DNA of 64,000 nt from contig JAQWNC010000002.1 in NCBI GenBank assembly GCA_029246505.1, positions 62,001-126,000 of the forward strand. Reading direction: 5' to 3'. This DNA comes from Arenicellaceae bacterium (GTDB taxonomy: Bacteria; Pseudomonadota; Gammaproteobacteria; Arenicellales; Arenicellaceae). Under the pieces are notes generated by a model that was not told the DNA's origin, did no database searches, and saw nothing but the letters and a program-made list of their open reading frames with translations. Positions 4,122-60,840 of this stretch are shown one piece after another. Every line of letters starts with the position of its first letter. Within the stretch, counting starts at the first letter, position 1. Made by a program: the position numbers and the translations under genes.

Positions 4122-6710
4122 TTAAGCTGCCATTACCTTGTCGGCAATCTCCTTGCCCTTCTTTGCAGCTTCTTGATACGAATCGATTTGGTCGAAATTC
4201 ATATAGCGGAAAATCTCTTCTGACATCGAGTCAATCTTCAGCGCGTATTCCATATATTCGTCTACCGTTGGTAATTTACCCAGAACCGCACCCACTGCTG
4301 CGAGTTCAGCTGATGTTAAATAGACATTTGCGCCATCCCCCAATCTATTCGGAAAGTTTCGAGTAGAGGTTGAGAGCACCGTACTACCCGCTTCAACTCG
4401 CGCCTGATTACCCATGCATAAGGAGCAACCGGGCATCTCGGTTCGAGCACCAGAAGCTCCAAATATATTGTAATAGCCCTCTTCCATAAGAGTTTTCTCA
4501 TCCATACGAGTAGGTGGCACTATCCACAAACGTGCATCTACACCAGAAGTCTCCGCAAGTAATTTACCCGCTGCCCTAAAATGGCCGATATTGGTCATGC
4601 ACGAACCGATGAATACTTCATCGACATTATCACCAGCCACTTCTGAGAGAACTCTTGCATCGTCAGGATCGTTAGGGGCACAAACGATAGGCTCATTCAC
4701 TTCAGCAAGGTCAATTTCTATGATTGCAGTATATTCAGCATCAGCGTCTGCCTCTAATAATGATGGCTTAGCCAACCAGGCTTCCATGTCACGAGCACGC
4801 CGTTCGATGGTTCGAATGTCGCCATAACCTTCAGATATCATCCAACGCAGCATGGTTATATTAGATCTCAAATATTGGCTAATAGTTTCTTCGTCAAGCT
4901 TGATTGTGCAGCCAGCTGCAGATCGTTCTGCAGATGCATCAGATAATTCAAATGCTTGTTCTACGGTCAATCCTGTAAGACCTTCAATTTCAAGAACCCG
5001 ACCGGAAAAAATGTTTTTCTTGCCTTTTTTCTCAACCGTTAATAGGCCCTGTTTGATAGCGTATAGGGGGATAGCATGTACCAGATCTCGCAAAGTGATT
5101 CCGGGCTGCATCTCACCTTTAAATCGAACCAATACTGATTCGGGCATATCTAATGGCATTACTCCGGTTGCAGCCGCAAAGGCTACCAGGCCAGAGCCTG
5201 CTGGAAAGGAAATACCTATAGGGAAACGGGTGTGAGAGTCGCCGCCAGTGCCAACCGTGTCCGGTAACAACATTCGGTTCAACCAGCTATGAATAATACC
5301 ATCGCCAGGTTGCAATGAAACTCCTCCACGGTTACGCATGAAGTCTGGGAGGCTATGTTGTGTTTCAATATCAACCGGTTTTGGATAAGCAGCAGTATGA
5401 CAAAATGATTGCATCACCAGATCTGCCTGAAACCCAAGACAAGCTAGATCTTGCAGTTCATCACGTGTCATAGGCCCGGTGGTATCCTGTGAACCAACGG
5501 TCGTCATTTTGGGTTCACAATAAGTACCGGGATGTACACCCTCTACCCCGCATGCCTGACCAACCATTTTTTGTGCAAGAGTAAATCCGCTTTTGCTATC
5601 GCCACCCGAAGTAGGTTTGTTAAATATATCTGTATCGCCTAAATCAAGTGCTTCTCTAGCCCGACGCGTTAGTCCTCTACCAATAATTAATGGAATTCTG
5701 CCACCAGCACGAACCTCATCGAGTAAAGTATCAGTCGCCAACTCAAAAGTTGTTAATACGTCATTGGTACCGTGTTTTTTAACAACACCTTGATGAGGAT
5801 ACACATCAATGACATCACCCATCTCCAACGACGAGACATCCATTTCTATAGGTAGTGCTCCTGAATCTTCCATGGTATTGAAGAAAATAGGAGCGATTTT
5901 GTCACCAAAGCAATAACCACCCGCACGCTTATTCGGAATAAACGGAATGTCAATCCCCATGTACCACAATACCGAATTAGTCGCCGACTTGCGTGACGAA
6001 CCAGTACCAACTACGTCGCCAACGTAGGCGATCGCGTGACCTGCTTTGTTCAGTTCTTCAATTTTTCCGAGCGGATCATTAGTCAGGCCTTCGCGTGGCA
6101 TTTTGAGCATAGCCAGCGCGTGCAACGGAATATCTGGTCTTGACCATGCGTCAGGCGCTGGAGACAAATCATCGGTGTTGGTTTCGCCAGGCACTTTAAA
6201 TACTGAAACGGTAATTTTTTCAGTAACCTCGTCTCTGCTAGTGAACCATTCGCCATCTGCCCAACTTTGCATAACTTTCTTTGCAGCCTTATTGCCAGAA
6301 CTGGCAAGATCCTTTACGTCATAAAATGCATCGAACATAAGTAAAGTATGCGATAACGTATTTATCGCGATATCTGCTAGTTCAGGATCTGATAAAGAAT
6401 CGACCATAGGCTTTACGTTATAGCCACCCAGCATCGTACCAAGTAGTGTCAGAGCCACAGCTCTGTCAACCAACGGCGATTCTGCTTCCTCATTAACAAT
6501 GGCTGTTAAAAACCCCGCCTTTACATACGCTGCCTCGTCCACACCAGCCGGTACCCGGTGAGTTAAGAGTTCAATCAATGTCTCTTCTTCTCCCACAGGT
6601 GGGTTTTTTAATAAATCTACGAGATCAGCGGTTTGCTGTGGATCAAGTGGTTTAGGTACGATTCCAAGTTCAGCACGTTCTGCGACGTGAGCTCGATAAG
6701 CTTTTAACAC
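4122..6710 (-). CDS. acnB: Aconitate hydratase B
   Basis: The 862-residue enzyme (E. coli AcnB 865) interconverts citrate and isocitrate in the TCA cycle through a 4Fe-4S cluster. AcnB-specific features are the N-terminal HEAT-like domain (starting YRAHVAERAELG), followed by the swivel domain and then the catalytic domains. Cluster cysteines are C704 (GSCMTNIGH), C762 and C765 (PGCSLCMGN). Translation starts at GTG, preceded by AGGAAA at a suitable distance, and the start aligns with the E. coli MLEEYRKHVAER. It is a single-gene unit with its own terminator. It is the only aconitase in the window. Confidence 0.98.
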   Translation of the reverse strand: MLKAYRAHVAERAELGIVPKPLDPQQTADLVDLLKNPPVGEEETLIELLTHRVPAGVDEAAYVKAGFLTAIVNEEAESPLVDRAVALTLLGTMLGGYNVKPMVDSLSDPELADIAINTLSHTLLMFDAFYDVKDLASSGNKAAKKVMQSWADGEWFTSRDEVTEKITVSVFKVPGETNTDDLSPAPDAWSRPDIPLHALAMLKMPREGLTNDPLGKIEELNKAGHAIAYVGDVVGTGSSRKSATNSVLWYMGIDIPFIPNKRAGGYCFGDKIAPIFFNTMEDSGALPIEMDVSSLEMGDVIDVYPHQGVVKKHGTNDVLTTFELATDTLLDEVRAGGRIPLIIGRGLTRRAREALDLGDTDIFNKPTSGGDSKSGFTLAQKMVGQACGVEGVHPGTYCEPKMTTVGSQDTTGPMTRDELQDLACLGFQADLVMQSFCHTAAYPKPVDIETQHSLPDFMRNRGGVSLQPGDGIIHSWLNRMLLPDTVGTGGDSHTRFPIGISFPAGSGLVAFAAATGVMPLDMPESVLVRFKGEMQPGITLRDLVHAIPLYAIKQGLLTVEKKGKKNIFSGRVLEIEGLTGLTVEQAFELSDASAERSAAGCTIKLDEETISQYLRSNITMLRWMISEGYGDIRTIERRARDMEAWLAKPSLLEADADAEYTAIIEIDLAEVNEPIVCAPNDPDDARVLSEVAGDNVDEVFIGSCMTNIGHFRAAGKLLAETSGVDARLWIVPPTRMDEKTLMEEGYYNIFGASGARTEMPGCSLCMGNQARVEAGSTVLSTSTRNFPNRLGDGANVYLTSAELAAVGAVLGKLPTVDEYMEYALKIDSMSEEIFRYMNFDQIDSYQEAAKKGKEIADKVMAA

Positions 6711-7004
6711 GATAAGTTTCCTATAATATTTTCAGAAATAAAGTTTACTGGCCCGCGATGCCACCATTTACACAATCAGTTTTTCGATTTCGAAAACGGT
6801 AAGTTTGGCCCAACATTTGATCCAGTTAAGCGGGTTGGTATTTTAAGCGCAACCAACACTAAAAGCCATGGTCATGGGAGTAGAAATGCTTCCTTTTCCC
6901 ATTCAAATTACAATCCGCTTGCTTCGTACCAAACAGCAAAAGCAGATAAATGGCCTGTTGAATGGTAGTATAAGAATCTCATAGGGCTTTTAAATAACAA
7001 CGCA

Positions 7005-8258
7005 TTGCAAAATATACCCACAGAGATTTTAGCGCTGTTGCTAGTGGCGTTGATCGTCACATCTGCTTGTTTTTCAGCTTCAGAAACTGCCATGATGGCA
7101 ATTAACCGATATAGGATAAAACATAAAGCACAAACTGGGCATCGGCCGTCTATTTTGATCGATGAACTATTGCAGGCGCCCGACAGACTACTCAGCACAA
7201 TCCTCATTGGTAATAATATTGCCAATATTAGTGCTACTGCCCTGGCAACTATTATAGGCTTAAAATTATACGGTGATGTTGGTATCGCTATAGCGACAGC
7301 TATTCTTGTATTGATAATATTAGTGTTTGCAGAAGTAGCGCCAAAAACATTAGCAGCAACACGGCCAGAGCTCATCGCATATCCTGCGGCCTATGTACTA
7401 AAGTTTTTACAAACTGCATTCAGCCCCGTCATTTGGTTGGTAAATATATGTAGCAATAGATTTTTAAAAATATTTGGTGTTTCCCTGGAATCTAGAGGAA
7501 GCTCCTTAAACCCTGATGAATTGCGTGCAGCTGTGATCGAGTCAAAAGGCTTGATCAACGAAAATCATCACAAAATGCTACTGCGCATTTTCGAATTTGA
7601 TAAAATGTGCGTCGATGATGTAATGGTGCCAAGGCAGGAACTGGAAACAGTTGACATAAATGATTCCTGGGAAGAAGTAGTAGATCAATTGGCAACCTCA
7701 CATCATACCCGCATACTAATTTACAAAGACCATATCGATAATCTTTTAGGGGTTATACATATGCGTCAATTATTTCATTTATCGCAATCGCCAGAAGGAC
7801 TAAATTGCGATACTGTGACAGAGATGATTCAGCCACCGTATTTTTTACCTGAAAGTACAACGCTGTCCAGTGCTTTGCTCCAGCTACAAGAGCAAAAGTA
7901 TAAGTTTGGCGTTGTTGTTGATGAATATGGTGATATAGAAGGCATCATTACTATCGAGGAAATTATCGAAGAGATTGTCGGCGATTTTACTATGGTCCTA
8001 CCTGGGCTTGATGAGGGTATTAAAATTGAGGAAGACGGTTCGTTTTTGGCCAGTGGCTCGGTAAATCTTAGAGAACTCAACCGACAACTGAATTGGAATC
8101 TTCCAACCGATGGAGCCAAAACACTAAATGGTTTAATTCTTGATTATTTGGAAGACATACCCCAACCGGCAACGACTGTTAGACTGGGTGACTTTTTAAT
8201 AGAAATAATACAAACTCGCGGTACAGCAGTGACAGAAACTAGGCTCCGTAAAGCATGA
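7005..8258 (+). CDS. CNNM/CorC-family CBS-domain membrane protein
   Basis: The 417-residue protein has an N-terminal DUF21/CNNM transmembrane domain (about residues 1-190; SACFSASETAMMAINRYR near 20-37 is the family signature). It then has a pair of CBS domains (VMVPRQELETVD near 205 to EIIEEIVGDF near 325) and a C-terminal CorC/HlyC domain. Relatives (E. coli YfjD, CorB) are linked to magnesium or cobalt efflux and magnesium homeostasis. The start is TTG, because no ATG lies between the upstream in-frame stop at 6966 and the conserved region. It is divergent from acnB. No partner genes are nearby. Confidence 0.92.
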   Translation: MQNIPTEILALLLVALIVTSACFSASETAMMAINRYRIKHKAQTGHRPSILIDELLQAPDRLLSTILIGNNIANISATALATIIGLKLYGDVGIAIATAILVLIILVFAEVAPKTLAATRPELIAYPAAYVLKFLQTAFSPVIWLVNICSNRFLKIFGVSLESRGSSLNPDELRAAVIESKGLINENHHKMLLRIFEFDKMCVDDVMVPRQELETVDINDSWEEVVDQLATSHHTRILIYKDHIDNLLGVIHMRQLFHLSQSPEGLNCDTVTEMIQPPYFLPESTTLSSALLQLQEQKYKFGVVVDEYGDIEGIITIEEIIEEIVGDFTMVLPGLDEGIKIEEDGSFLASGSVNLRELNRQLNWNLPTDGAKTLNGLILDYLEDIPQPATTVRLGDFLIEIIQTRGTAVTETRLRKA

Positions 8259-48567: not shown

Positions 48568-49566
48568 TTAAGATGCTTTCTTGAGTTCCTGTAAGGCGCC
48601 AAACACTCTTTCAGCAGTCGCAGGTAGTGTCGTAATCCGAACCCCGACCGCATCATAAATCGCGTTGCAGATCGCGGCAGCCGTTGGAACCGCCGTTGGC
48701 TCACCCGCACCTTTTGCACCAAATGGCCCTGTAGGATCATAATTGTCCACCAAACCAACTTCGAGCTCAGGCATATCCAAACTGGTAGGCATAATATAAT
48801 TAGTCAGATTTGGATTAATTTGTCTGCCATCGTCGGCAAACAAAATCTCTTCTTGCAGAGCAAAACCAACCCCCATGGAGATTCCACCCTCAATTTGACC
48901 TTCAACCAACATAGGGTTAATTGGCGTTCCACAATCGTGTACAGCCACCATACGCTTAACCTCAACCTCACCCGTCTCATCATCTACTTCGACGTCTGCA
49001 ATCTGAGTAGCGTACACATAAGTGTTAAAAGGTTTACCTTGACCGGTTTCAGGGTCCATCTCTACCGTCGGAGGATTATAAGATGCACTACCAATAGATG
49101 GAGTACCAATCACCGCCTCACAGTGCTGTGAAACTTCATCAATACCTAAAGATTTTGAAGGAAATCCAAGAACTTCGATTTTACGATCAACTGCCTTTAA
49201 TTGGTCGACTGGAACACCCAATAAAGGTCCAGCCCCCTCAAATAAAATTTGTCGTGCCTTCTCTGCAGCCGATAATACCGCGTTACCAGTCACGTAAGTC
49301 GTTCTACTGGCGATAGCACCATAATCCATTGGCGTTGTGTCAGTATCAGCCGAAACAACATGTACATCGTCTGTAGCGATACCAAGAGCTTCAGCCACTA
49401 TTTGACCTAGTACTGTTAATGCTCCCTGACCGGTTTCTACTGTGCCAGTCAGTACCGTAGCCGTTCCATCTGTATTAACCTTAACAGTAGCGGCACTGGG
49501 ATTTGCCATTACGGTAAACCCAATCGGGTACCACATACAGGCCATACCGCGTCCTTTTTTAATCAT
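48568..49566 (-). CDS. Molybdenum hydroxylase, medium Mo-binding subunit (C-terminal part of the large chain)
   Basis: The roughly 332-residue protein covers the second half of a xanthine dehydrogenase-family molybdopterin subunit. It has GRGMACMWYPIGFTV at the start, then LTGTVETGQGALTVLGQIVAEALGI, VHDCGTPINPMLVEGQIEGG, and GAKGAGEPTAVPTAAAICNA with the catalytic Glu of the GxGE motif. The ATG at 49566 overlaps the TGA of the preceding gene (ATGA), so it is translationally coupled. A TTG at 49584 is the longer alternative. Joined to the 470-residue protein, the two equal one normal Mo subunit of about 800 residues. The split resembles NdhL/NdhM of Eubacterium barkeri nicotinate dehydrogenase. 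Confidence 0.88.
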   Translation of the reverse strand: MIKKGRGMACMWYPIGFTVMANPSAATVKVNTDGTATVLTGTVETGQGALTVLGQIVAEALGIATDDVHVVSADTDTTPMDYGAIASRTTYVTGNAVLSAAEKARQILFEGAGPLLGVPVDQLKAVDRKIEVLGFPSKSLGIDEVSQHCEAVIGTPSIGSASYNPPTVEMDPETGQGKPFNTYVYATQIADVEVDDETGEVEVKRMVAVHDCGTPINPMLVEGQIEGGISMGVGFALQEEILFADDGRQINPNLTNYIMPTSLDMPELEVGLVDNYDPTGPFGAKGAGEPTAVPTAAAICNAIYDAVGVRITTLPATAERVFGALQELKKAS

Positions 49567-50975
49567 GCCTCTGACTCCTGCCAACCAAATCGCTCGCTTG
49601 CCTGATTCAATGACTCTTTCAAAGCAACACTCTGTAAACGTTGACTAGTTGGACTCGAAGAACCATCGCTAAACGCATTCTTTAACCTTATCTCTAATGG
49701 GTTCATCCCCAGCTTTTCAGCAATGGTGTCCATTTGCGACTCATAAGCAAAGCAGACCTGCGGCGCACCAAAGCCTCGCATAGCGCCTGTGACTGTTTTA
49801 TTAGTATAGACCGCATAGGCCTCTACATAGATATTCGGAATATTGTACGGCCCTGGAGATAGTATCGAGCCTTTACCTATAGTTGTTCCAGTCCAAGAAC
49901 AGTAGGCACCACCATCGAGAAGAATGTGTATCTTACGTGCGACTAGCGTGCCGTCATTCATTACGCCAGTCTTGTAATCCATCACGAACGGATGTCGAAT
50001 GGTCGAAGACACAAATTCATCACCACGGGTATATACCGCTTTTACAGGCCGCCCTGTCTTTCGTGAAAGCAATGCAAGTATTGGCTCATTGGTAATTTCA
50101 TTTTTACCACCAAAGTTTCCGCCAACAATTGTTCCGACTAATCGAATTTTGCTCTGTGGAATATCGAGAGTACGTGCAATATCCTGGCGGCCTAATGTAA
50201 TTCTACCTAGGCTCGACCAAATGGAAACGCGGCCATTACCATCCCATGAAGCAATCGATGCATGTGGCTCTAGCGGTACATGCTCAACCATCTGGGTAGT
50301 AAACCGTTCTTCAAACACGTGATCACACTCGGCAAATGATTTTTCCACATCCCCTTTCTTAATAACCTTACTTGCGTATACGTTAGTATCCCCACCGTGA
50401 ATCCGTGGTGAGTCATCACCAAAGGACTCCACCACATCAAACAATGGCTCTAATGGCTCATATTTAACCTTGATCTTAGATAGCGCCTCTTCTGCCACTT
50501 GCTCCGAAACAGCAGCTACTGCAGCCACGCCATCGCCACGATGTCGAACAATCGTATCGGCAAGAACTGGTTGGTCTTGTAACGTTGGCCCAAAACTATT
50601 GGTTGGAATCTCTTTACCCGTAAGAGTAGCGAACACACCTGGCATTGCTTCGGCCGCACTGGTATCAATACTAATAATCTTCGCGTAAGCGTACTCGCTA
50701 CGGAGAATCTTCGCATGAATCATATGAGGGAATTTTATGTCATCGATATACTGTGTTTGCCCCAATCCGTGTAGACGACCATCAGGTCGGGTAGCCCGTT
50801 GACCAACCGCCTGAGTATTCATTCTAGACTCGTGCTGCGGAAACTCACGTGGATAGGTAACTGGATTATCTGTAGGAACTTTATGAGAATCTTTTTTATC
50901 TATGGGAGTTGACGTTTCCTTAGCCGTTATCGCAGTCTTATCGGCTTTATTAAGATTTTTCATTCTTGTGTTCAT
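49563..50975 (-). CDS. Molybdenum hydroxylase, large Mo-binding subunit (N-terminal part)
   Basis: The 470-residue protein is the first half of a xanthine dehydrogenase-family Mo subunit. After a polar N-terminal extension of about 60 residues comes the a/b hammerhead domain (GQTQYIDDIKFPHMIHAKIL). The first Mo domain follows with VGGNFGGKNEITNEPI and TGAMRGFGAPQVCFAYESQM. The protein ends GWQESEA, exactly where one-piece homologues continue into the second Mo domain. No Tat or Sec signal is seen, so the enzyme is likely cytosolic. It is the third gene of the FAD, FeS, Mo, Mo order. The substrate is unknown. Confidence 0.88.
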   Translation of the reverse strand: MNTRMKNLNKADKTAITAKETSTPIDKKDSHKVPTDNPVTYPREFPQHESRMNTQAVGQRATRPDGRLHGLGQTQYIDDIKFPHMIHAKILRSEYAYAKIISIDTSAAEAMPGVFATLTGKEIPTNSFGPTLQDQPVLADTIVRHRGDGVAAVAAVSEQVAEEALSKIKVKYEPLEPLFDVVESFGDDSPRIHGGDTNVYASKVIKKGDVEKSFAECDHVFEERFTTQMVEHVPLEPHASIASWDGNGRVSIWSSLGRITLGRQDIARTLDIPQSKIRLVGTIVGGNFGGKNEITNEPILALLSRKTGRPVKAVYTRGDEFVSSTIRHPFVMDYKTGVMNDGTLVARKIHILLDGGAYCSWTGTTIGKGSILSPGPYNIPNIYVEAYAVYTNKTVTGAMRGFGAPQVCFAYESQMDTIAEKLGMNPLEIRLKNAFSDGSSSPTSQRLQSVALKESLNQASERFGWQESEA

Positions 50976-50986
50976 TAGCCTAGCCC

Positions 50987-51478
50987 CTAAAAAGTGTTTG
51001 ATTGTGGATATTTATCTGAACTCATAACACGACCAGCGCCTTCGATCGCCTCGATGATCTTAGTATAACCAGTGCAGCGACATAGATTCCCTGATAGCGC
51101 ATCCTTAATCTCATGCCGAGATGCCGTTGGATTTTTGTCGAGCAAGTTTTTGGCCGACATTATCATTCCAGGGCCACAAAATCCGCATTGTAACGAACCT
51201 AGCTCCTCGAATGCTTCTTGAATCGGGTGAACTCCCTGTGAATCAGCCAAACCTTCGATAGTCGTAACATCCCTTCCCGCTGCACGTGCAGCGAGCATAA
51301 GGCATGAATTATATGACTCACCATCAACGATAACCGTACAAGTACCGCAGTCACCAACATCGCAACCCAACTTAGCTCCGGTAAGCATAAGATGCTCACG
51401 CAAGAACTTGAGTAAAGTCGTCTCGGGCGGGCAATCCGCCGATTTCCATTCACCATTAACTGTTAATTCAACTAACAT
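50987..51478 (-). CDS. Molybdenum hydroxylase, 2Fe-2S subunit
   Basis: The 163-residue protein has a plant-ferredoxin-like N-terminal cluster with C39, C44, C47 and C59 (GCDVGDCGTCTV...NSC), and a C-terminal helical cluster domain with C98, C101, C133 and C135 (CGFCGPGM...LCRCTGY). This is the exact pattern of CoxS/NdhS-type subunits. It passes electrons from the Mo centre to FAD. It starts 18 bases after the FAD subunit and ends 11 bases before the large Mo subunit. Confidence 0.95.
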   Translation of the reverse strand: MLVELTVNGEWKSADCPPETTLLKFLREHLMLTGAKLGCDVGDCGTCTVIVDGESYNSCLMLAARAAGRDVTTIEGLADSQGVHPIQEAFEELGSLQCGFCGPGMIMSAKNLLDKNPTASRHEIKDALSGNLCRCTGYTKIIEAIEGAGRVMSSDKYPQSNTF

Positions 51479-51496
51479 AACTAAGACAACTCCCGA

Positions 51497-52366
51497 TTAA
51501 CTTTCCCGCGCAATGCGGATTGATTCTTTTAAGACGCGCTGAGTAAAAACTTTAATAATCTGGCGTCGATAATTTGCTGAGGCTCTAAAATCATCGATAG
51601 GCCTAGATTCCGATACAGCCAACTCTGCTGCTTCGTTAATAACATCGTCAGTTACTGACTTACCGGCTAAAAACGCTTCGGTCTTAACCGCGCGTAATGG
51701 TACCGGCGCGACCGCGCCTAATGCCAATCGTGGTTCAAGAATTTTACCATCCTTATCCAACCATAGCGCAGCTGCACCGTTTACTAGAGCAAGAGCTTGA
51801 CCTTTTCGTAACCCATGTTTTAGGAATGCCGAGGGTTTACCAAGCGATGCCTTGGGTATGAATATACTTTCGAGCAGTTCACCAGGTTTAAGAGCGGTTT
51901 TACGGGGCCCAACGAAAAAATCCGCAACTGGCATCTCACGCGAGCCAGCCAGCCCCGTTACTATCACTGTAGCGTCTAACACCATAATCGAAGGCGCGCT
52001 ATCCGCAGAAGGTACACAGGTTACGAAGTTTCCACCAATTGTACCTAGGTTACGTGTTTGCACCGCACCTACGGTGTGAGCCCCATCAATAACTGCCGGC
52101 ATTTTTTCCTGAAAAAGAGAAGAAGCCATAATCTCACTAAAGGTAGTCATACTACCAAGGCGCACGCCTTTGGAAGTTTCCTCGATACCTCGAAATTGGG
52201 GAATACCCGAAACATCAATCAAAAGGTTTGTGTTTCCAGCGTTATGTTTTAGGTCAACAACTAGGTCGGTACCGCCGGCAAGCAGCCGTGCGGTTTCACC
52301 ATTTTCTACAAGAAGCGCTACAGCTTCTTCAGCAGAAGATGGTGCAATATATTCAAATGGTCTCAT
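51497..52366 (-). CDS. Molybdenum hydroxylase, FAD-binding subunit
   Basis: The 289-residue protein is of the CoxM/CutM/NdhF type. The start MRPFEYIAPSSAEEAVALL, ARLLAGGTDLVVDLKHN near residues 28-44 and the FAD-binding TRNLGTIGGNFVTCVPSADS near 104-123 are hallmark motifs. C-terminal ASANYRRQIIKVFTQRVL is the CO dehydrogenase flavoprotein tail. It is the first subunit gene of the operon; a TATAAT sits about 155 bases upstream. Confidence 0.95.
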   Translation of the reverse strand: MRPFEYIAPSSAEEAVALLVENGETARLLAGGTDLVVDLKHNAGNTNLLIDVSGIPQFRGIEETSKGVRLGSMTTFSEIMASSLFQEKMPAVIDGAHTVGAVQTRNLGTIGGNFVTCVPSADSAPSIMVLDATVIVTGLAGSREMPVADFFVGPRKTALKPGELLESIFIPKASLGKPSAFLKHGLRKGQALALVNGAAALWLDKDGKILEPRLALGAVAPVPLRAVKTEAFLAGKSVTDDVINEAAELAVSESRPIDDFRASANYRRQIIKVFTQRVLKESIRIARES

Positions 52367-52634: not shown

Positions 52635-54158
52635 CTAAATTTTCTTGCTTGGTCGAAACTCCTCGTCGAGCGCTGCTCTAATTCGTGTAACTGCAGCCGA
52701 ATCTGGCGCATCTGTATAACGACTCACTAGCAATGCGACAGGTACATTTACGACTAAGCCCCAAAATGAAGGATCGTAGCGAACTCCTGCCGGCAGAAAG
52801 TCACGGCCATAAAATCGCACTGTAAACGAAGCAATCAAACCCGCCATAATACCGCAGGTAATACCAGCTTTAGTGAACCAGACGCGTTTCATGGGCACCG
52901 TGACCGCCAGCACCGCGGGCAACAACTGTACAATCATTGAAGCCGTTATGCCGATCATCATTGTAACCAGACCCCAGTCCTTATCGGCTGCCAGTACAGT
53001 AATGACAACAAGGAAAAAAACAATCAGACGACCTACTTTGATGTAATGACTGTCAGGTGAGCCTTTCTTAATAAACTTGGAGTACACGTCCTTGGTTAAC
53101 ATTGCTGAATTGGCATTAGTATCTGCATCAAGTGATGACATACCTGCGGCAAGGCCACCAGCCACTAATACCCCGGCAAACCAAGCCGGCGCATGTTCGG
53201 CAAGCAAGGTTGGGAACGATGCATCAGAGTTGACGATATCTGGGTAATAAGCGAAAGCTGTAAAGCCGATAACCATCGCAGGCAAAAACAAAACCATCAG
53301 ATAGAAACCAACCGTTAATCCGATTTTCTGTACTGTCTTCACGTCTCGTGCCGAATAATAGAACATGAAACTGCGCGGTAAAATCGCCCAATAGAACGCT
53401 ATACCAAACACAGGCCAGGTAAGCCACCACTGCTGTGTCGCCAAGCCTTTACGCCCAGGTAAGGTCAGCATCGACGGATCAATCTCCTTAACTTTGTTAA
53501 ATAATGCCAACAGGTCGCCATCTATCAGAGTCAGGCACCAGTACCCAGCCGCCCAAATGGCAATAAACATCCAGATCGCCTGTGCAACAGTCGTCCAGGT
53601 AACACCACGAATGCCGCTGGTAGTGACGTATATAAACACTAAAAACCCCATTATCAGAGTCGCTGCAAATTTCGTAATATGGTTCTCCGTTCCTGCCGAC
53701 AATAATATTGCAGGCCCAGTAATGTTGGCTGTCATTAACGGAATGCAGCACGATAGGATGTAGAGGGCAATAAATGCTCTAAATTTCCCATCGCCAAAGT
53801 AATCCGTGAGCATGTCTGCTGGCGTGATGTAGTTAAATTTACGACCTAAACAGGTGATTCTGGAGCCGACATAGTAAATCATCACCAGAGGGGTAAAAAC
53901 GGTCCAAAGTATATTGGCCGCAAAGGCGACACCATGCGAGTGGTAGAAACCCATCGACCCTGGTATTGCAAAAGCTGTGTGAAAGCCACCAGCCATACCA
54001 AGATAGAGAACAAGGAAACCAAAGCCGGGGCCAACTTTAAAATAGTCGTCCATTCGATCGTTGGATGCCTTGGTCCACTTCCCGGTACCGATCCAAAGAA
54101 TAAATACGGCATAAACCGCTACGATAATAATTGTGTACTGCCAAGATTCTAAATTCAT
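52635..54158 (-). CDS. Sodium:solute symporter
   Basis: The 507-residue protein has about 13 TM helices. It carries SSS-family patterns such as MDDYFKVGPGFGFLVLYLGM near residues 36-55, TSGIRGVTWTTVAQAIWMF near 165-183, and AGGLAAGMSSLDADTNANSA near 318-337, the latter near the sodium-binding helix 8. It imports an organic solute with Na+. It overlaps the small membrane protein upstream by 4 bases and precedes the Mo hydroxylase genes on the same strand, so it may import the enzyme's substrate (inference). Confidence 0.92.
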   Translation of the reverse strand: MNLESWQYTIIIVAVYAVFILWIGTGKWTKASNDRMDDYFKVGPGFGFLVLYLGMAGGFHTAFAIPGSMGFYHSHGVAFAANILWTVFTPLVMIYYVGSRITCLGRKFNYITPADMLTDYFGDGKFRAFIALYILSCCIPLMTANITGPAILLSAGTENHITKFAATLIMGFLVFIYVTTSGIRGVTWTTVAQAIWMFIAIWAAGYWCLTLIDGDLLALFNKVKEIDPSMLTLPGRKGLATQQWWLTWPVFGIAFYWAILPRSFMFYYSARDVKTVQKIGLTVGFYLMVLFLPAMVIGFTAFAYYPDIVNSDASFPTLLAEHAPAWFAGVLVAGGLAAGMSSLDADTNANSAMLTKDVYSKFIKKGSPDSHYIKVGRLIVFFLVVITVLAADKDWGLVTMMIGITASMIVQLLPAVLAVTVPMKRVWFTKAGITCGIMAGLIASFTVRFYGRDFLPAGVRYDPSFWGLVVNVPVALLVSRYTDAPDSAAVTRIRAALDEEFRPSKKI

Positions 54159-54403
54159 TCTCCTTTCGCCTCCGCGTCGTCTTTAGCAATTTTAGTGCCT
54201 AATATCCAGCAGCCAATCAGCCAAACAAAACCCCAACCACTACACCAAACAAAAACCAATGGCATACCAAACACTGGAATGGGCTCATTCACCCACCATG
54301 TGCCTATGTAAACCATCAAAAAACAAATAATAAACCAGGCCATATAGAGCTTTTCCCAAAGCGTTCTTGGCGTAAGATGACTTGTGTACTCAGGTTCTGT
54401 CAT
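54155..54403 (-). CDS. Small two-helix membrane protein, symporter partner (DUF3311-like)
   Basis: The 82-residue protein has two TM helices (LYMAWFIICFLMVYIGTWW and FVWCSGWGFVWLIGCWIL) separated by a short loop with PVFGMPLVF. Short proteins of this form (DUF3311 or YhdT-like) often precede SSS symporters. Its TGA overlaps the symporter ATG, indicating translational coupling and probable complex formation. Confidence 0.8.
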   Translation of the reverse strand: MTEPEYTSHLTPRTLWEKLYMAWFIICFLMVYIGTWWVNEPIPVFGMPLVFVWCSGWGFVWLIGCWILGTKIAKDDAEAKGE

Positions 54404-54952: not shown

Positions 54953-56014
54953 GTGAATCACGGCACACTCTTACCTGTAGCGCTCGTATCTATAAATATT
55001 TTAGCATCTGTAACCGTTCAGGCACATCACTCGCCGAACCTGCACTTTGATCGTAGTAATATTATAGAAATTACCGGTCGGCTGACCGATATTGACTGGC
55101 AAAACCCTCATACGCAATTTACTGTTACAACTTCTGCTGAGGACGGAAGCATAGCTATTTGGCTTATTGAAGGTAGAGGCGCAAGCCAATTCACACGCGC
55201 TAGAGTTACTGCTGACTTCTTCGAAACCGGCAGTAATATCAGCTTCGCGGGATTTAGAGGCCGACGTAATAGAACGGCAATGTTCGCGACCAATATTCTG
55301 CTGGCCAACGGCCAGGAACTCGTAGTTGATAGCTTCACCACTCCCCGCTGGTCGGCAGACACAGCACTGTTACTGAGCGCGAGTAGTCAAAAAGGTACCG
55401 CAAAGAACGCACCCCTTAATCCCAAAGATATCTTTCGAGTCTGGAGCCCGGATCGCTCTGATCACGGCATCGATGGCACAGGTAGAACCTTATGGTTAGA
55501 CAACTACCCATTGACTGAGTTTGCTCAAACCACACAATCCAACTGGGACCCTGTTAACGATAACCCCTATATCAACTGTCAAAATGGCATGCCGGCAATG
55601 ATGGACTTGGCAACGCCCATAGAATTTGTGCAAGACGGCGATAACATTGTTTTATACCTTGAGGAACAGGATGCAGTACGTCATATTCGTATGACTCCCC
55701 AATCCAGTAACGAGGACGAAGCAGCAAGCCCTTATGGACAATCGGTCGGCCGTTGGGATAGCTCCACCCTTGAAGTAACAACAACAAAAATCGACTGGCC
55801 TTGGTTTGATCAAGCGGGAATTCCGCAGACAGCGCAACTCCAGCTGGTAGAGAGATTTACTCCGTCTGCCGACGGACTCGTTCTGCGTTATCAACTTACC
55901 GCAACAGACCTAGCAGTCTTTACAGAAATAGTTCTGCTTAATCGAGCTTGGGTTTGGGACCCAACCGAAAAACTTAGACCTTACAACTGTGTATGGGATC
56001 GTAGCGACCTATGA
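54953..56014 (+). CDS. Secreted DUF6152 protein with a fused second domain
   Basis: The 353-residue protein starts at GTG (CAGGAGACC upstream) and has a signal peptide ending VQAHHS. Residues about 24-125 form a DUF6152 domain (AHHSPNLHFD, ITGRLTDIDWQNPHTQF, IWLIEGRGASQFTRARV). Residues about 145-353 match in layout the separate 220-residue protein encoded at 57165-57827: Cys-xx-GMP, SxGxWD-SSTLEV, and LVERFTPSADGLVLRYQL with WVWDPTEKLRPYNCVWD at the end. So this is a fusion of two proteins that are separate genes nearby. The function is unknown; the domains sit next to Mo oxidoreductase genes. Confidence 0.82.
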   Translation: MNHGTLLPVALVSINILASVTVQAHHSPNLHFDRSNIIEITGRLTDIDWQNPHTQFTVTTSAEDGSIAIWLIEGRGASQFTRARVTADFFETGSNISFAGFRGRRNRTAMFATNILLANGQELVVDSFTTPRWSADTALLLSASSQKGTAKNAPLNPKDIFRVWSPDRSDHGIDGTGRTLWLDNYPLTEFAQTTQSNWDPVNDNPYINCQNGMPAMMDLATPIEFVQDGDNIVLYLEEQDAVRHIRMTPQSSNEDEAASPYGQSVGRWDSSTLEVTTTKIDWPWFDQAGIPQTAQLQLVERFTPSADGLVLRYQLTATDLAVFTEIVLLNRAWVWDPTEKLRPYNCVWDRSDL

Positions 56015-56090: not shown

Positions 56091-56650
56091 CAGAGCTTAA
56101 TTATTGCTTACTTCACTGGCAGGTGTAATCATACCTTCGCCGGCGATGATCGCTGCAAACGAGAAGTCAGCAAAATCACCATTGGCTAAAACGATATTAT
56201 AAAGCCACAATACTTTTCTATCACTACGGCTGGGTGAACCGTTAATAGTAAGTTTATCCCCTGGACTTATAAGGCTTTCTCTAATCCCTGCACGCCTTAG
56301 ATTGCTTGCGCCATGTATAGCAGCTGTCCATTCCACCTCATTTCCTTGTTCATCAATAGCCATAAACACCAATTGGGAATGTGGATTGACTAGCTTGAAC
56401 GATACGGCGGTTACGTCAATAAAATCTAGCGTTGTTTCCATATCAAAGTATGCATCCCTGCTGTGATGAGATGCTGCTGGGTGTACGCCAAGCAAACTAA
56501 CAATCACAACGAGCAATGTGGTGGCTATATGTTTCATTATTTAATTCCTTAATCTACATACGGTAATTTACGCCGGTTCACAAAGCAACTGTATTCGGGG
56601 CAGCACTGATACTCCAACATCATTCCGGGGCTAACTCCCGGCCCGCACTG
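56091..56650. repeat. Tandem duplication, arm A (with deletion)
   Basis: Matches 56681-57240 at a constant offset of 590 bases, covering the DUF6152 gene, the spacer and the last about 70 bases of the 220-residue protein gene. After 56650 the arm jumps to 19 bases (56652-56670) that match 57929-57947 (18 of 19), implying that most of a second copy of the 220-residue gene was deleted. Confidence 0.85.
56097..56537 (-). CDS. Secreted DUF6152 protein, copy A
   Basis: The 146-residue protein has a signal peptide ending AASHH, followed by the DUF6152 pattern: SHHSRDAYFDMETTLDFIDV, VNPHSQLVFMAIDEQGNEVE, HGASNLRRAGIRESLISPGD and LTINGSPSRSDRKVLWLYN. It is highly similar to copy B 590 bases away. 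Between the copies is a relic of the upstream gene's C-terminus, so this is one arm of a tandem duplication. The HH at the mature start could bind a metal; that is inference. Confidence 0.85.
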   Translation of the reverse strand: MKHIATTLLVVIVSLLGVHPAASHHSRDAYFDMETTLDFIDVTAVSFKLVNPHSQLVFMAIDEQGNEVEWTAAIHGASNLRRAGIRESLISPGDKLTINGSPSRSDRKVLWLYNIVLANGDFADFSFAAIIAGEGMITPASEVSNN

Positions 56651-56680: not shown

Positions 56681-57240
56681 TGGAGCTCAATTATTAATTA
56701 TTTCACTGGCAGGTGTAATGATTCCTACGCCAGTTCTGATCGCTCCAAACAGGTCTGCGACATCGCCGTTGGCTAACACTACCGTATACAGCCACATTGC
56801 TTTTTTGTCGCCACGGCTAGGTGAACCCCTAACGGTAAGTTTATCTCCCGGGCTTATAAGACTTTCTCTAATTCCGGCACGTCTTAGATGGCTTGCGCCC
56901 AGTATACCCGCAGTCCATTCCACCTCATTGCCCTGTTCGTCTTTGGCCATAAATACCAGCTGGGAATGTGGATTCACTACCCTGAAGGATACGGCGGTTA
57001 CGTCAATGAACTCAACCCTTGCTTCCATATCAAAGTAGGCATCCCTGCTGTGATGAGATAATACTGGGTGCACGCCAAGCAAACTGACAATCACAACAAG
57101 CAATGTGGTGGCTATATGTTTCATCATTTAATTCCTCAATCTATACACGCTAATTTACGTCGGATCAAAAGCCACTGTATTCGGGGTAGCACTCATACTC
57201 CAATATCATCCCATCCTGCGCTAACTTCCGGCCCCCACTG
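56681..57240. repeat. Tandem duplication, arm B
   Basis: The intact counterpart of 56091-56650. It continues into the complete 220-residue protein gene and its upstream spacer as far as about 57947. Confidence 0.85.
56687..57127 (-). CDS. Secreted DUF6152 protein, copy B
   Basis: The 146-residue paralogue of copy A has identical domain order: signal peptide ending VLSHH, SRDAYFDMEARVEFIDVTAV, VNPHSQLVFMAKDEQGNEVE, LTVRGSPSRGDKKAMWLYT. Substitutions are scattered and mostly conservative, so both copies appear to be under selection for the protein. It lies 37 bases downstream of the 220-residue gene on the same strand, probably in one operon with it. Confidence 0.86.
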   Translation of the reverse strand: MMKHIATTLLVVIVSLLGVHPVLSHHSRDAYFDMEARVEFIDVTAVSFRVVNPHSQLVFMAKDEQGNEVEWTAGILGASHLRRAGIRESLISPGDKLTVRGSPSRGDKKAMWLYTVVLANGDVADLFGAIRTGVGIITPASEIINN

Positions 57241-57967: not shown

Positions 57968-58468
57968 ATGACTATTGTTACCCTACGCGTCAATGGCGCG
58001 TCCCACGAAGTTGATATCGACCCGGCCACACCTCTTCTATATGTGTTACGTAACGACCTTGAGCTGCGTGGCCCACGTTTTGGCTGCGGACTCGGCCAGT
58101 GCGGGGTATGTACTATAATCGTTGATGGGGCTGCAGTGCGTTCTTGCACCATACCGGCTTCACAGGTTAGTGGCGAAATAACTACACTCGAAGGTCTCTC
58201 CACAAACGGCATGCTGGATCCGCTACAGCAGGCCTGGATCGACGAGCAGGTTCCACAATGTGGTTATTGCCAGAACGGTCAGATTATGACAGCCAAAGCG
58301 CTACTTAACCAAAACCCGAACCCGACCGACATTGAAATCCGTACAGGAATGGAAGGCGCATTGTGTCGATGTATGACTTACTATCGTATTCAGGCGGCGA
58401 TAAAACGTGTAGTCCAAGGTGCAGTGGTATCTGCCACGCCTGAGACTGATCAAGGAGCAGACGTATGA
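57968..58468 (+). CDS. IorA-type 2Fe-2S subunit of a molybdenum oxidoreductase
   Basis: The 166-residue protein has two 2Fe-2S cluster sites: C40, C45, C48 and C60 (GCGLGQCGVC...SC), then C98, C101, C133 and C135 (CGYCQNGQIM...LCRCMTYYR). The CxYCQNGQ and CRC(M)TY variants are typical of the isoquinoline 1-oxidoreductase (IorA) branch. The stop codon overlaps the start of the Mo subunit gene by 4 bases (ATGA). It acts as a small electron-transfer subunit; no FAD subunit accompanies it. Confidence 0.95.
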   Translation: MTIVTLRVNGASHEVDIDPATPLLYVLRNDLELRGPRFGCGLGQCGVCTIIVDGAAVRSCTIPASQVSGEITTLEGLSTNGMLDPLQQAWIDEQVPQCGYCQNGQIMTAKALLNQNPNPTDIEIRTGMEGALCRCMTYYRIQAAIKRVVQGAVVSATPETDQGADV

Positions 58469-60840
58469 GTAAAACACTGCAGCTTCCAAAAATAATCGAA
58501 GATGCACTCCTTCAAGCTAATCCATCCACTTCCCGTCGCAATTTTCTAAAGTCCTCAGGAGCCCTGATACTAAGCGTCGGCGTAAACTCTATCCCGGGCG
58601 GCAAAGTTCTCGCGCAAACCACAGACAGCGGTCCCTACACAGATCCTGACTTTCTACAGCTGGATACCTGGATCGTAATCCATCCGGACAATACTGCGAG
58701 CTTCTTCGTGGGCAAAACCGATGGTGGTCAGGGGACTGGCACTGCATTTCGACAAATGATGTGCGACGAGCTCGATATTGCTTACGATAAGACCAATCTC
58801 GTCATGGGCAGCACTGATACAACGCCTGACCAGGGTGGTTCAGGCGGTTCCGACGGTGTTGAGCGGGATGGCTGGCCGATGCGGCGAGTTGCTGCTGAAG
58901 CTAGACGAGTCCTACTAGGGTTAGCATCCGATTATTTAGAAATACCAATCACCGAGCTTGTGGTGAGCAACGCAATAATCACAAGCAACAACGACCCATC
59001 TAAGATAGTTACCTACGCTGAACTGATCGGCGGAAGAACATTCAACGTTTCACTTACAGGAGAAAACGTCAATGCCACCAGTGGCGTAGCAAACGTCAAA
59101 CCGGTTAGCGACCTCAACGTTATAGGTCAGTCCATTCAACGTTACGACATCCCTGCAAAGGTCGACGGGTCGCTGATATGGGCTGTCGATGTGAAACTGC
59201 CCGGCATGGTCCATGCGCGAAACGTCCGGCCACCACTCGTCGGTGCCACTCTACGCAGCATCGATGAGTCATCAGTCGCCGACACCCCAGGTTTGATCCG
59301 CGTGGTAAGCCGCGGTAACTACGTGGCCGTAGTCTGCGAGCGCGAAGAGCAAGCCATCAGTGCTGCCCGACAATTACAAGTTGATTGGGCAGCACCATCC
59401 GAAGCACCTTTTCCGGCATCGGACGATCTATTTGACTATATGCGTAGCGCAACCATTGCAGCCAATAGCGCTTCAGATATAACGGGCGACCCCGATTCAG
59501 CACTGGAAGCCGCAGAACATCTCATTGAAGCCGAGTACGAAGTACCCTATCAGGGACATACAGCGATTGGTCCTGCCCACGCTCTGGCCGACCCGTCCGA
59601 TGGTCAAATGACGATTTACTCGAACGATATAAAATCTTATGGCTTGCGTAGAGGAGTTGCGAAGTTTTTAGGTATAGCAAAAGAACAAGTGCGGGTGATT
59701 TACATGGATGGACCTCAAGTTTATGGCCGTACCGCAGCCGACGACGCTGGCTTTGAGGCTGCGTTTCTTGCTCATGAGCTCGGGCGACCAGTCCGCGTAC
59801 AATGGATGCGAGATGAGGAAACCGCTTGGGACACGAAGGGTCCTGCATACACTTTCAAGCTACGAGGGGGGCTCGATCGCCAAGGTAAACTCGTAGCACT
59901 CGAATACGCTGCACGTGCTGCCGACTACAATCACCTTGGATACAACCAGGCAGACACAGTCTTGATTGCTCAGCTAATGGGCATACGCCCCTCTGAACCA
60001 GCTAAGGGTCGTTCTGTAACGCCGTCTATTAAATACGCCATTGCGAATCAGCGTATGACCGCCGATATCGTTAGCCTCCCTTTGATCTGGGGGACGCCAC
60101 TTCGTACCGGTAATCTTCGCGACCCTAACGGGCCGCAGGTGACATTTGCATTCGAATCCTTCATCGATGAGCTAGCCGCTGTGGCAAGCGCCGACCCGGT
60201 TCAGTTCCGGCTCGATCTTTTAACCAGCAGTGATGAGGACGACCTGCTCCGGCGGGCACGTTCTATCGCCACCCTCAATGCCGCGGCTGAAAGCTTCGGC
60301 TGGGAGACGCGACCGTCACCGAATCCGCAGATATCAGAGCCTGGTAGTCCATTCGTCACTGGGCGCGGTCTCGGCTACACCTTCCGTAACGGCACGGTCG
60401 TAGCGTTAATAGCAGAGGTCGAAGTAAACCGCACCACTGGGCATATCTGGGTCAAGCGGCTGGTGTGCGGCCATGACTGTGGTCTCGTGATCAACCCAGC
60501 GGGACTCAGCCATACCGTCGAGTGCGGCATATTACATGGCCTAAGTAGAGCGCTATGGGAAGAAGTCCAGTTCGACACTAAAAAAATCAAGAGTGTCGAT
60601 TGGGTGTCGCACCCAAGCCTCCGGCATTCCGACATACCGGAAACCATCGAAATCGTTCAGGTCAACGGCGACCCTAATCCAGACCGCCCTGATCTACCCC
60701 ACTATGGTGCGGGTGAAGCAAGCCATAAACCGGTTATAGCAGCGGTTGCGAATGCTATTTATGATGCGACTGGCGTACGCCTGCGTCGACCACCTTTCCG
60801 TAAGGAACGAGTTTTAGCGGCAATCCACGCACAAACTTGA
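58465..60840 (+). CDS. IorB-type molybdopterin subunit with Tat signal
   Basis: The 791-residue single-chain Mo subunit carries a twin-arginine motif SRRNFLK (residues 23-29) and hydrophobic stretch to VLAQ near 51, so it is exported folded to the periplasm, probably with the IorA subunit. Mo-domain motifs: GKTDGGQGTGTAFRQMMCDE, YMDGPQVYGRTAADDAGFEA (degenerate form of the GGxFG motif), and catalytic Glu in YGAGEASHKPVIAAVANAIY near 750. The first Mo domain variant and the lack of an FAD subunit fit IorAB-type enzymes that use membrane or periplasmic electron acceptors. The substrate is unknown. Confidence 0.93.
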   Translation: MSKTLQLPKIIEDALLQANPSTSRRNFLKSSGALILSVGVNSIPGGKVLAQTTDSGPYTDPDFLQLDTWIVIHPDNTASFFVGKTDGGQGTGTAFRQMMCDELDIAYDKTNLVMGSTDTTPDQGGSGGSDGVERDGWPMRRVAAEARRVLLGLASDYLEIPITELVVSNAIITSNNDPSKIVTYAELIGGRTFNVSLTGENVNATSGVANVKPVSDLNVIGQSIQRYDIPAKVDGSLIWAVDVKLPGMVHARNVRPPLVGATLRSIDESSVADTPGLIRVVSRGNYVAVVCEREEQAISAARQLQVDWAAPSEAPFPASDDLFDYMRSATIAANSASDITGDPDSALEAAEHLIEAEYEVPYQGHTAIGPAHALADPSDGQMTIYSNDIKSYGLRRGVAKFLGIAKEQVRVIYMDGPQVYGRTAADDAGFEAAFLAHELGRPVRVQWMRDEETAWDTKGPAYTFKLRGGLDRQGKLVALEYAARAADYNHLGYNQADTVLIAQLMGIRPSEPAKGRSVTPSIKYAIANQRMTADIVSLPLIWGTPLRTGNLRDPNGPQVTFAFESFIDELAAVASADPVQFRLDLLTSSDEDDLLRRARSIATLNAAAESFGWETRPSPNPQISEPGSPFVTGRGLGYTFRNGTVVALIAEVEVNRTTGHIWVKRLVCGHDCGLVINPAGLSHTVECGILHGLSRALWEEVQFDTKKIKSVDWVSHPSLRHSDIPETIEIVQVNGDPNPDRPDLPHYGAGEASHKPVIAAVANAIYDATGVRLRRPPFRKERVLAAIHAQT

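Follow-up and report, generated by a model that had tools for sequence, protein, structure and literature searches.

A putative four-subunit molybdenum hydroxylase with a split molybdenum chain in an Arenicellaceae bacterium and its relatives

Four close-packed genes on the minus strand, in the order F-S-L-M, in a 64,000-nucleotide stretch of DNA from an Arenicellaceae bacterium (hereafter the window; GenBank assembly GCA_029246505.1, contig JAQWNC010000002.1, positions 62,001 to 126,000) probably encode a molybdenum (Mo) hydroxylase of the xanthine oxidase family whose Mo chain is divided into two subunits, L and M. We put at about 0.85 the joint probability that this is a genuine four-subunit enzyme, that it belongs to a distinct clade, that L and M are an obligate pair, that the genes form an operon and that the product serves small-molecule catabolism. 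The earlier note on this stretch had proposed a four-gene set in the order flavin adenine dinucleotide (FAD), 2Fe-2S, large Mo (470 residues) and medium Mo (332 residues) subunit, with an ATGA overlap between the two Mo genes, and our analysis confirmed all of these open reading frames, as well as the overlap, in place:

51497-52366, minus strand: F, FAD subunit of 289 residues, XdhB/NdhF type (Pfam FAD_binding_5 and CO_deh_flav_C over cut-off)
50987-51478, minus strand: S, 2Fe-2S subunit of 163 residues, two clusters expected (Pfam Fer2 and Fer2_2)
49563-50975, minus strand: L, large Mo subunit of 470 residues, NdhL-like (Pfam Ald_Xan_dh_C and MoCoBD_1; best PDB match 3hrd_A)
49575-49579, minus strand: AGGAG, resembling a ribosome-binding site, 8 bases ahead of the M start and within the end of L
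49563-49566, minus strand: ATGA overlap of the L stop (TGA) and the M start (ATG), read from the sequence
48568-49566, minus strand: M, medium Mo subunit of 332 residues, NdhM-like (Pfam MoCoBD_2; best PDB match 3hrd_B)

The split in the molybdenum chain

A single gene block with FAD, 2Fe-2S and two MoCoBD domains, all scoring over their Pfam cut-offs, indicates membership of the xanthine oxidase family; the NCBIfam gamma-subunit models scored S under their cut-offs. The overlap lies where one-piece homologues continue, as the earlier note had stated, since L and M align with consecutive parts of one-piece models, such as those for XdhA (1-426 and 435-754) and for the alpha subunit of 4-hydroxybenzoyl-CoA reductase (8-412 and 420-746). 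A mechanical gene call opens M at TTG 49584, giving 338 residues, but we set its start at ATG 49566 (332 residues) because this codon aligns with Met1 of NdhM and with Met1 of the related proteins described next.

To place the split among relatives, we used 80 loci fetched by M patterns alone. Of these, 63 form together with the window what we call the family (64 rows; 59-89% identity in L and 67-95% in M), which comes mainly from metagenome-assembled genomes of Gamma-, Beta- and Alphaproteobacteria, Acidobacteriota and Actinomycetota. From the loci, L116 (no L on the contig), L125 (apparently the L041 record again) and L107 (a near copy of L106) were dropped, and L012-L016 were omitted or swapped for longer stretches. 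A sample of 398 genomes from across the phylum yielded no further hit exceeding 45% identity at E 1e-60, and every one of the 133 records from a plasmid search lay below 60% identity, so that no annotated close relative was found there.

The same split point is present in 62 of the 64 family rows, the window included, among them that of a genome of the same genus (G001), whose contig C140 is apparently the source of the nearest relative, L041, as the identities agree. The L and M genes overlap by 4 bases in 49 family rows and by 1 base in 7, are separated by 2-5 bases in 6 and are fused in 2. A Shine-Dalgarno-like motif precedes M in 52 of the 62 split rows, versus 314 of 3061 same-frame control positions inside L. 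Relative to L041, the ratio of nonsynonymous to synonymous substitution rates (dN/dS) amounts to 0.043 in L and 0.019 in M at a dS above 1; both Mo halves are under purifying selection and hence are no chance reading frames.

The two exceptions, loci L081 and L090, carry joined L-M chains (4573-7011 and 4600-7011, respectively), in which the M start codon is replaced by AAC and the frames are connected via a short linker. In an unrooted tree of L and M together, built from 76 of 118 full-length rows (53 from the family and 65 others; rows with L below 400 or M below 300 residues were excluded), they form a pair with 100/100 support inside the family, and the split L091 branches outside them. 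Because they nest among split rows and have AAC in place of the start codon, L081 and L090 are most simply explained by a single re-fusion of a split ancestor, the direction of this change being unproven in an unrooted tree.

The split is thus old and nearly fixed in this clade. A recent frameshift or sequencing error in a one-piece gene with both halves still translatable, which the earlier note had offered as one option, might seem to account for two frames that abut exactly where one-piece homologues run through and for one-piece relatives at about 70% identity, but it is effectively excluded because family members from several phyla, the same-genus genome among them, share the split position, the motif before M is kept and both halves are under purifying selection. 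The search for an uninterrupted frame in sister genomes, proposed in the earlier note as a way to overturn the split, had the opposite outcome, with only the nested L081 and L090 running through the junction.

Active-site signature and cofactor maturation

Active-site residues, numbered as in nicotinate dehydrogenase (NDH) with the subunit as suffix, were compared across the 118 aligned rows. The catalytic Glu289M, which we take to act as the base, is present in 118/118, and Tyr13M and Phe353L (Phe402 in L of the window) are kept in all 53 full-length family rows. By contrast, the position of Gln208L, a residue whose amide side chain normally contacts the apical oxo ligand of Mo, holds Gly in 53/53 family rows (Gly257 in the window) versus Gln in 65/65 others. 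Likewise, the pterin-stacking Phe (Phe288 in the window, within GGNFGGK) is preceded by Asn in 53/53 family rows (Asn287 in the window) versus Gly, Ala or Ser in 65/65 others. These are the only two columns that pass a filter of at least 95% for one residue in the family and at least 70% for another elsewhere. Both signatures are found in each of the 62 family rows covering this region, L078 and L080 ending short of it, and, as only M patterns had been used to retrieve the loci, the signature in L was not selected for. For comparison, a published account of KdhL describes the equivalent Phe269 as stacking on the pterin and Gly270 as lying 3.9 Å from Mo (PMC8305194).

This pattern shows the predicted active site to be of a distinct sub-type, with Gln replaced by Gly and Asn before the Phe. 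More tentatively, and with the odds against it, an amide side chain may have moved between neighbouring loops in this widespread, unnamed clade, the Gln giving way to Gly while the Gly before the Phe became Asn, and this swap would have persisted in all readable members from several phyla.

Regarding maturation of the cofactor, the earlier note had likened the enzyme to a selenium-dependent one, but selenium dependence was not borne out. In C. difficile, yqeB is required for selenium-dependent purine use (PMC11448449). A yqeB gene was found in none of seven family genomes (0/7: the window's own, its sister and five further ones) versus 4/4 genomes of clostridia with split enzymes, and since some family genomes are incomplete it is this 7-versus-4 contrast that carries weight, a single absence being weak. 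XdhC, the sulfuration partner of such enzymes, was found in the own and sister genomes. From the lack of yqeB and the presence of XdhC, the Mo is most likely sulfurated by an XdhC-type route rather than selenylated, and the absence of yqeB from 7/7 family genomes makes a selenium enzyme unlikely. The selD gene, also present in the own and sister genomes, is not specific and hence uninformative on selenium.

Gene neighbourhood and likely function

Upstream of F, which is the conserved first gene of the enzyme block in family loci, two further genes lie on the same strand:

52635-54158, minus strand: SSF-family sodium:solute symporter of 507 residues (Pfam SSF)
54155-54403, minus strand: protein of 82 residues overlapping the symporter start (no Pfam or NCBIfam match)

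Both genes also stand upstream of the enzyme block in L041, L042 and L088, and the symporter is the likely importer of the substrate. In relatives, the enzyme is accompanied either by this gene pair or by a lactate-permease-type gene, with a Tdh/IolM-like zinc dehydrogenase, an isopropylmalate/homocitrate-synthase-like gene, a DUF1330 protein and a Gfo/Idh oxidoreductase as further neighbours, and still other loci have a GntR-FCD regulator, TTT or Liv-type transport genes and 2-hydroxyacid dehydrogenases nearby; the name TTT is our own reading, and the NCBIfam names of neighbours are from scores below the equivalog cut-offs. In several betaproteobacterial-type loci (L048, L071, L072 and L079) the zinc dehydrogenase gene sits between S and L. 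No known pathway could be assembled from the neighbours named by Pfam and NCBIfam; the overall impression is of the breakdown of a small polar compound taken up by the cell.

In the mechanism that we propose, L and M would be made by coupled translation, as suggested by the overlap and the ribosome-binding-site-like motif, and would form one active site, to which L would bring its hammerhead domain and the first of the two cofactor-binding domains, and M the second of these together with the catalytic Glu289. As expected from the enzyme family, electrons leaving the Mo would travel via the two 2Fe-2S clusters of S and end at the FAD of F, and the chemistry would be the one usual for Mo hydroxylases, Glu289M serving as base. 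The enzyme would probably oxidise or hydroxylate a small imported organic compound within a catabolic pathway, to which, in relatives, a zinc-type dehydrogenase may belong as well as an isopropylmalate/homocitrate-synthase-like enzyme.

A more specific proposal is that the enzyme is an aldehyde or hydroxy-acid dehydrogenase partnered with the zinc dehydrogenase, the Gly/Asn pair fitting a polar aliphatic substrate. The Tdh/IolM-like zinc dehydrogenase adjoins or interrupts the block in many relatives and also occurs beside the enzyme genes of Caballeronia (L102) and Phaeobacter (L160), and transporters of lactate-permease, TTT, Liv and SSF types lie nearby. The neighbour names, however, all come from sub-cut-off NCBIfam scores, the window has no adjacent zinc dehydrogenase and the genome no close copy of it, and the type of enzyme is not readable from sequence. 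We therefore hold this proposal at slightly below even odds.

Several points weigh against the overall interpretation of a distinct, catabolic four-subunit enzyme. The two Mo chains are separate proteins by prediction from their genes. No close copy of the zinc dehydrogenase was found in the own genome (best 29%) and none is adjacent in the window, and the own genome's isopropylmalate-synthase-like gene lies on another contig, next to TRAP-transporter, M24-peptidase and 2-hydroxyacid-dehydrogenase genes. Moreover, the alignment with 7dqx (Kdh) has Val at the Gln position, and the Gly/Asn signature may be an adaptation to substrate rather than a mechanistic novelty; in the predicted structure of L, residues 284-292 are modelled with too little confidence to place Asn287. 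The Val of 7dqx also led us to reject the Gln as invariant across the superfamily: this residue is usual, not universal, in the xanthine oxidase family, and the Gly found here does not decide membership.

Elsewhere in the window, a second Mo hydroxylase set (57968-60840, plus strand), consisting of a 2Fe-2S gene and a one-piece Mo chain of 791 residues with a signal-like N-terminus, is encoded on the other strand, some 5.6 kb away from the F-S-L-M block. An ARAGORN call of tRNA-Glu (60591-60684, minus strand) falls within this 791-residue Mo gene of the other strand and is probably a false positive. Two tandem, very similar open reading frames of 146 residues (56097-56537 and 56687-57127, minus strand), the first matching DUF6152, are accompanied by one of 353 residues (54953-56014, plus strand), part of which matches DUF6152; homologues occur near the family enzyme in the acidobacterial loci L073 and L089.

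Relation to nicotinate dehydrogenase and origin of the split

The earlier note had drawn a resemblance to NDH of Eubacterium barkeri, and this holds. NDH (PDB 3hrd) is the top PDB match of both L and M by sequence (38% and 43% identity, respectively) and by predicted fold, the predicted structures being of middling confidence (predicted local distance difference test scores of 76 and 79). Both enzymes have four subunits in the order F-S-L-M with agreeing chain sizes, the same cut of the Mo chain and an M that opens at the same residue, and the equivalents of Tyr13M, Phe353L and Glu289M are kept; the four NDH subunits measure 23, 33, 37 and 50 kDa (PMC10331938). The second-best PDB match of L and M by sequence is the alpha subunit of 4-hydroxybenzoyl-CoA reductase (1rm6; 34% and 35% identity), which, like XdhA, shares the domains and the catalytic Glu but has a one-piece Mo chain.

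Split Mo chains are also found in clostridial loci, in Caballeronia and Phaeobacter and in another proteobacterial group (L126 and part of L136-L150). The split enzymes of clostridial purine clusters (L101, L106-L109, L111-L114, L117 and L118) have L and M genes with mostly short overlaps and are 35-40% (L) and 37-43% (M) identical to those of the window, but they differ in their purine-type neighbours, which at L101 would by our own reading include yqeB/yqeC/mocA-like genes, in retaining the Gln and in the presence of yqeB. In Caballeronia (L102), on the Phaeobacter plasmid pS26_248 (L160) and in L132 the M gene is separate as in the window, whereas S and L are fused in one chain, identity is about 41% and 43% and the Gln is retained; in L102 and L160 it is the enzyme block that the zinc dehydrogenase adjoins. 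A further proteobacterial four-gene set, likened here from its published description (PMC5239795), is ndrB1B2B3B4 of Sphingomonas melonis TY, which is required for nicotine degradation and in which both ndrB3 and ndrB4 are Mo-subunit-like. A literature search on the split Mo chain, ndhL/ndhM and the Gln brought up no paper that we recognised as treating the clade described here, most subscription journals lying outside its reach.

The earlier note had considered an independent gene fission, and the phylogeny partly upholds it. In the 76-row tree the family is one clade (100/100), apart from a group of NDH and the clostridial split rows (92/91), and in the free tree one-piece enzymes fall between the two. 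Approximately unbiased (AU) tests rejected a single clade of the family, NDH and the clostridial split enzymes (p-AU 0.016) and a single clade of all split rows (p-AU 0.008). Trees built separately from L and from M each recover the family as a single clade; NDH and the clostridia do not stay together in the M tree. The pairwise distances of L and M correlate (r 0.83, 53 rows). An independent origin of the family's split is therefore favoured but not proven, as long branches are present and the root is not known. A single ancient split, common to NDH and the clostridial purine-cluster enzymes and followed by later re-fusions, is a less probable but serious alternative: the split point is identical, a re-fusion apparently occurred within the family, and the starred branches of the unrooted tree are compatible with a single origin of the other split rows. 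Against it stand both AU tests and the one-piece enzymes that intervene in the free tree.

Far less probable is that F-S-L-M is a true NdhFSLM orthologue, a selenium-dependent enzyme converting nicotinate to 6-hydroxynicotinate. The best PDB matches, chain count, gene order, split point and conserved residues listed above would all fit such an orthologue, but identity is just 38% and 43%, Gln208L is Gly and Gly238L is Asn, yqeB is missing, the AU test rejects a joint clade (p-AU 0.016) and the neighbours are unlike those of a nicotinate pathway. Thus, the split Mo chain within a four-subunit set is shared with NdhFSLM while a close sequence or phylogenetic grouping is not, and the enzyme is a relative of NDH, not an NdhFSLM orthologue. 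A homologue of 6-hydroxynicotinate reductase was found in one of five family genomes (that of L092, from Rhodoplanes serenus DSM 18633), with no match in the own (G000), sister (G001), L042 and L044 genomes. We rejected a nicotinate pathway on the absence of this gene from the own, the sister and the two nearest family genomes tested, and nicotinate is unlikely as the substrate. On a plasmid of Sulfitobacter pontiacus, a fused S-L-M chain is followed by an annotated 6-hydroxynicotinate reductase gene (L159, 9953-11440).

What is new here is an old, widespread clade with its own active-site signature, which sets it apart from every comparison row, so that labelling its members "nicotinate dehydrogenase" or "xanthine dehydrogenase" would be misleading. 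The split Mo chain, for which searches of the PDB returned NDH only, emerges as a stable architecture of several groups, spread through Proteobacteria and Acidobacteriota and with at least one likely re-fusion. Gly257 and Asn287 offer a compact residue pair for probing the second coordination shell around Mo by mutagenesis. If the amide side chain has indeed moved between the loops, this shell would be re-wired, perhaps for a new reaction, and the naturally re-fused L081 and L090 would allow a direct test of the effect of the split.

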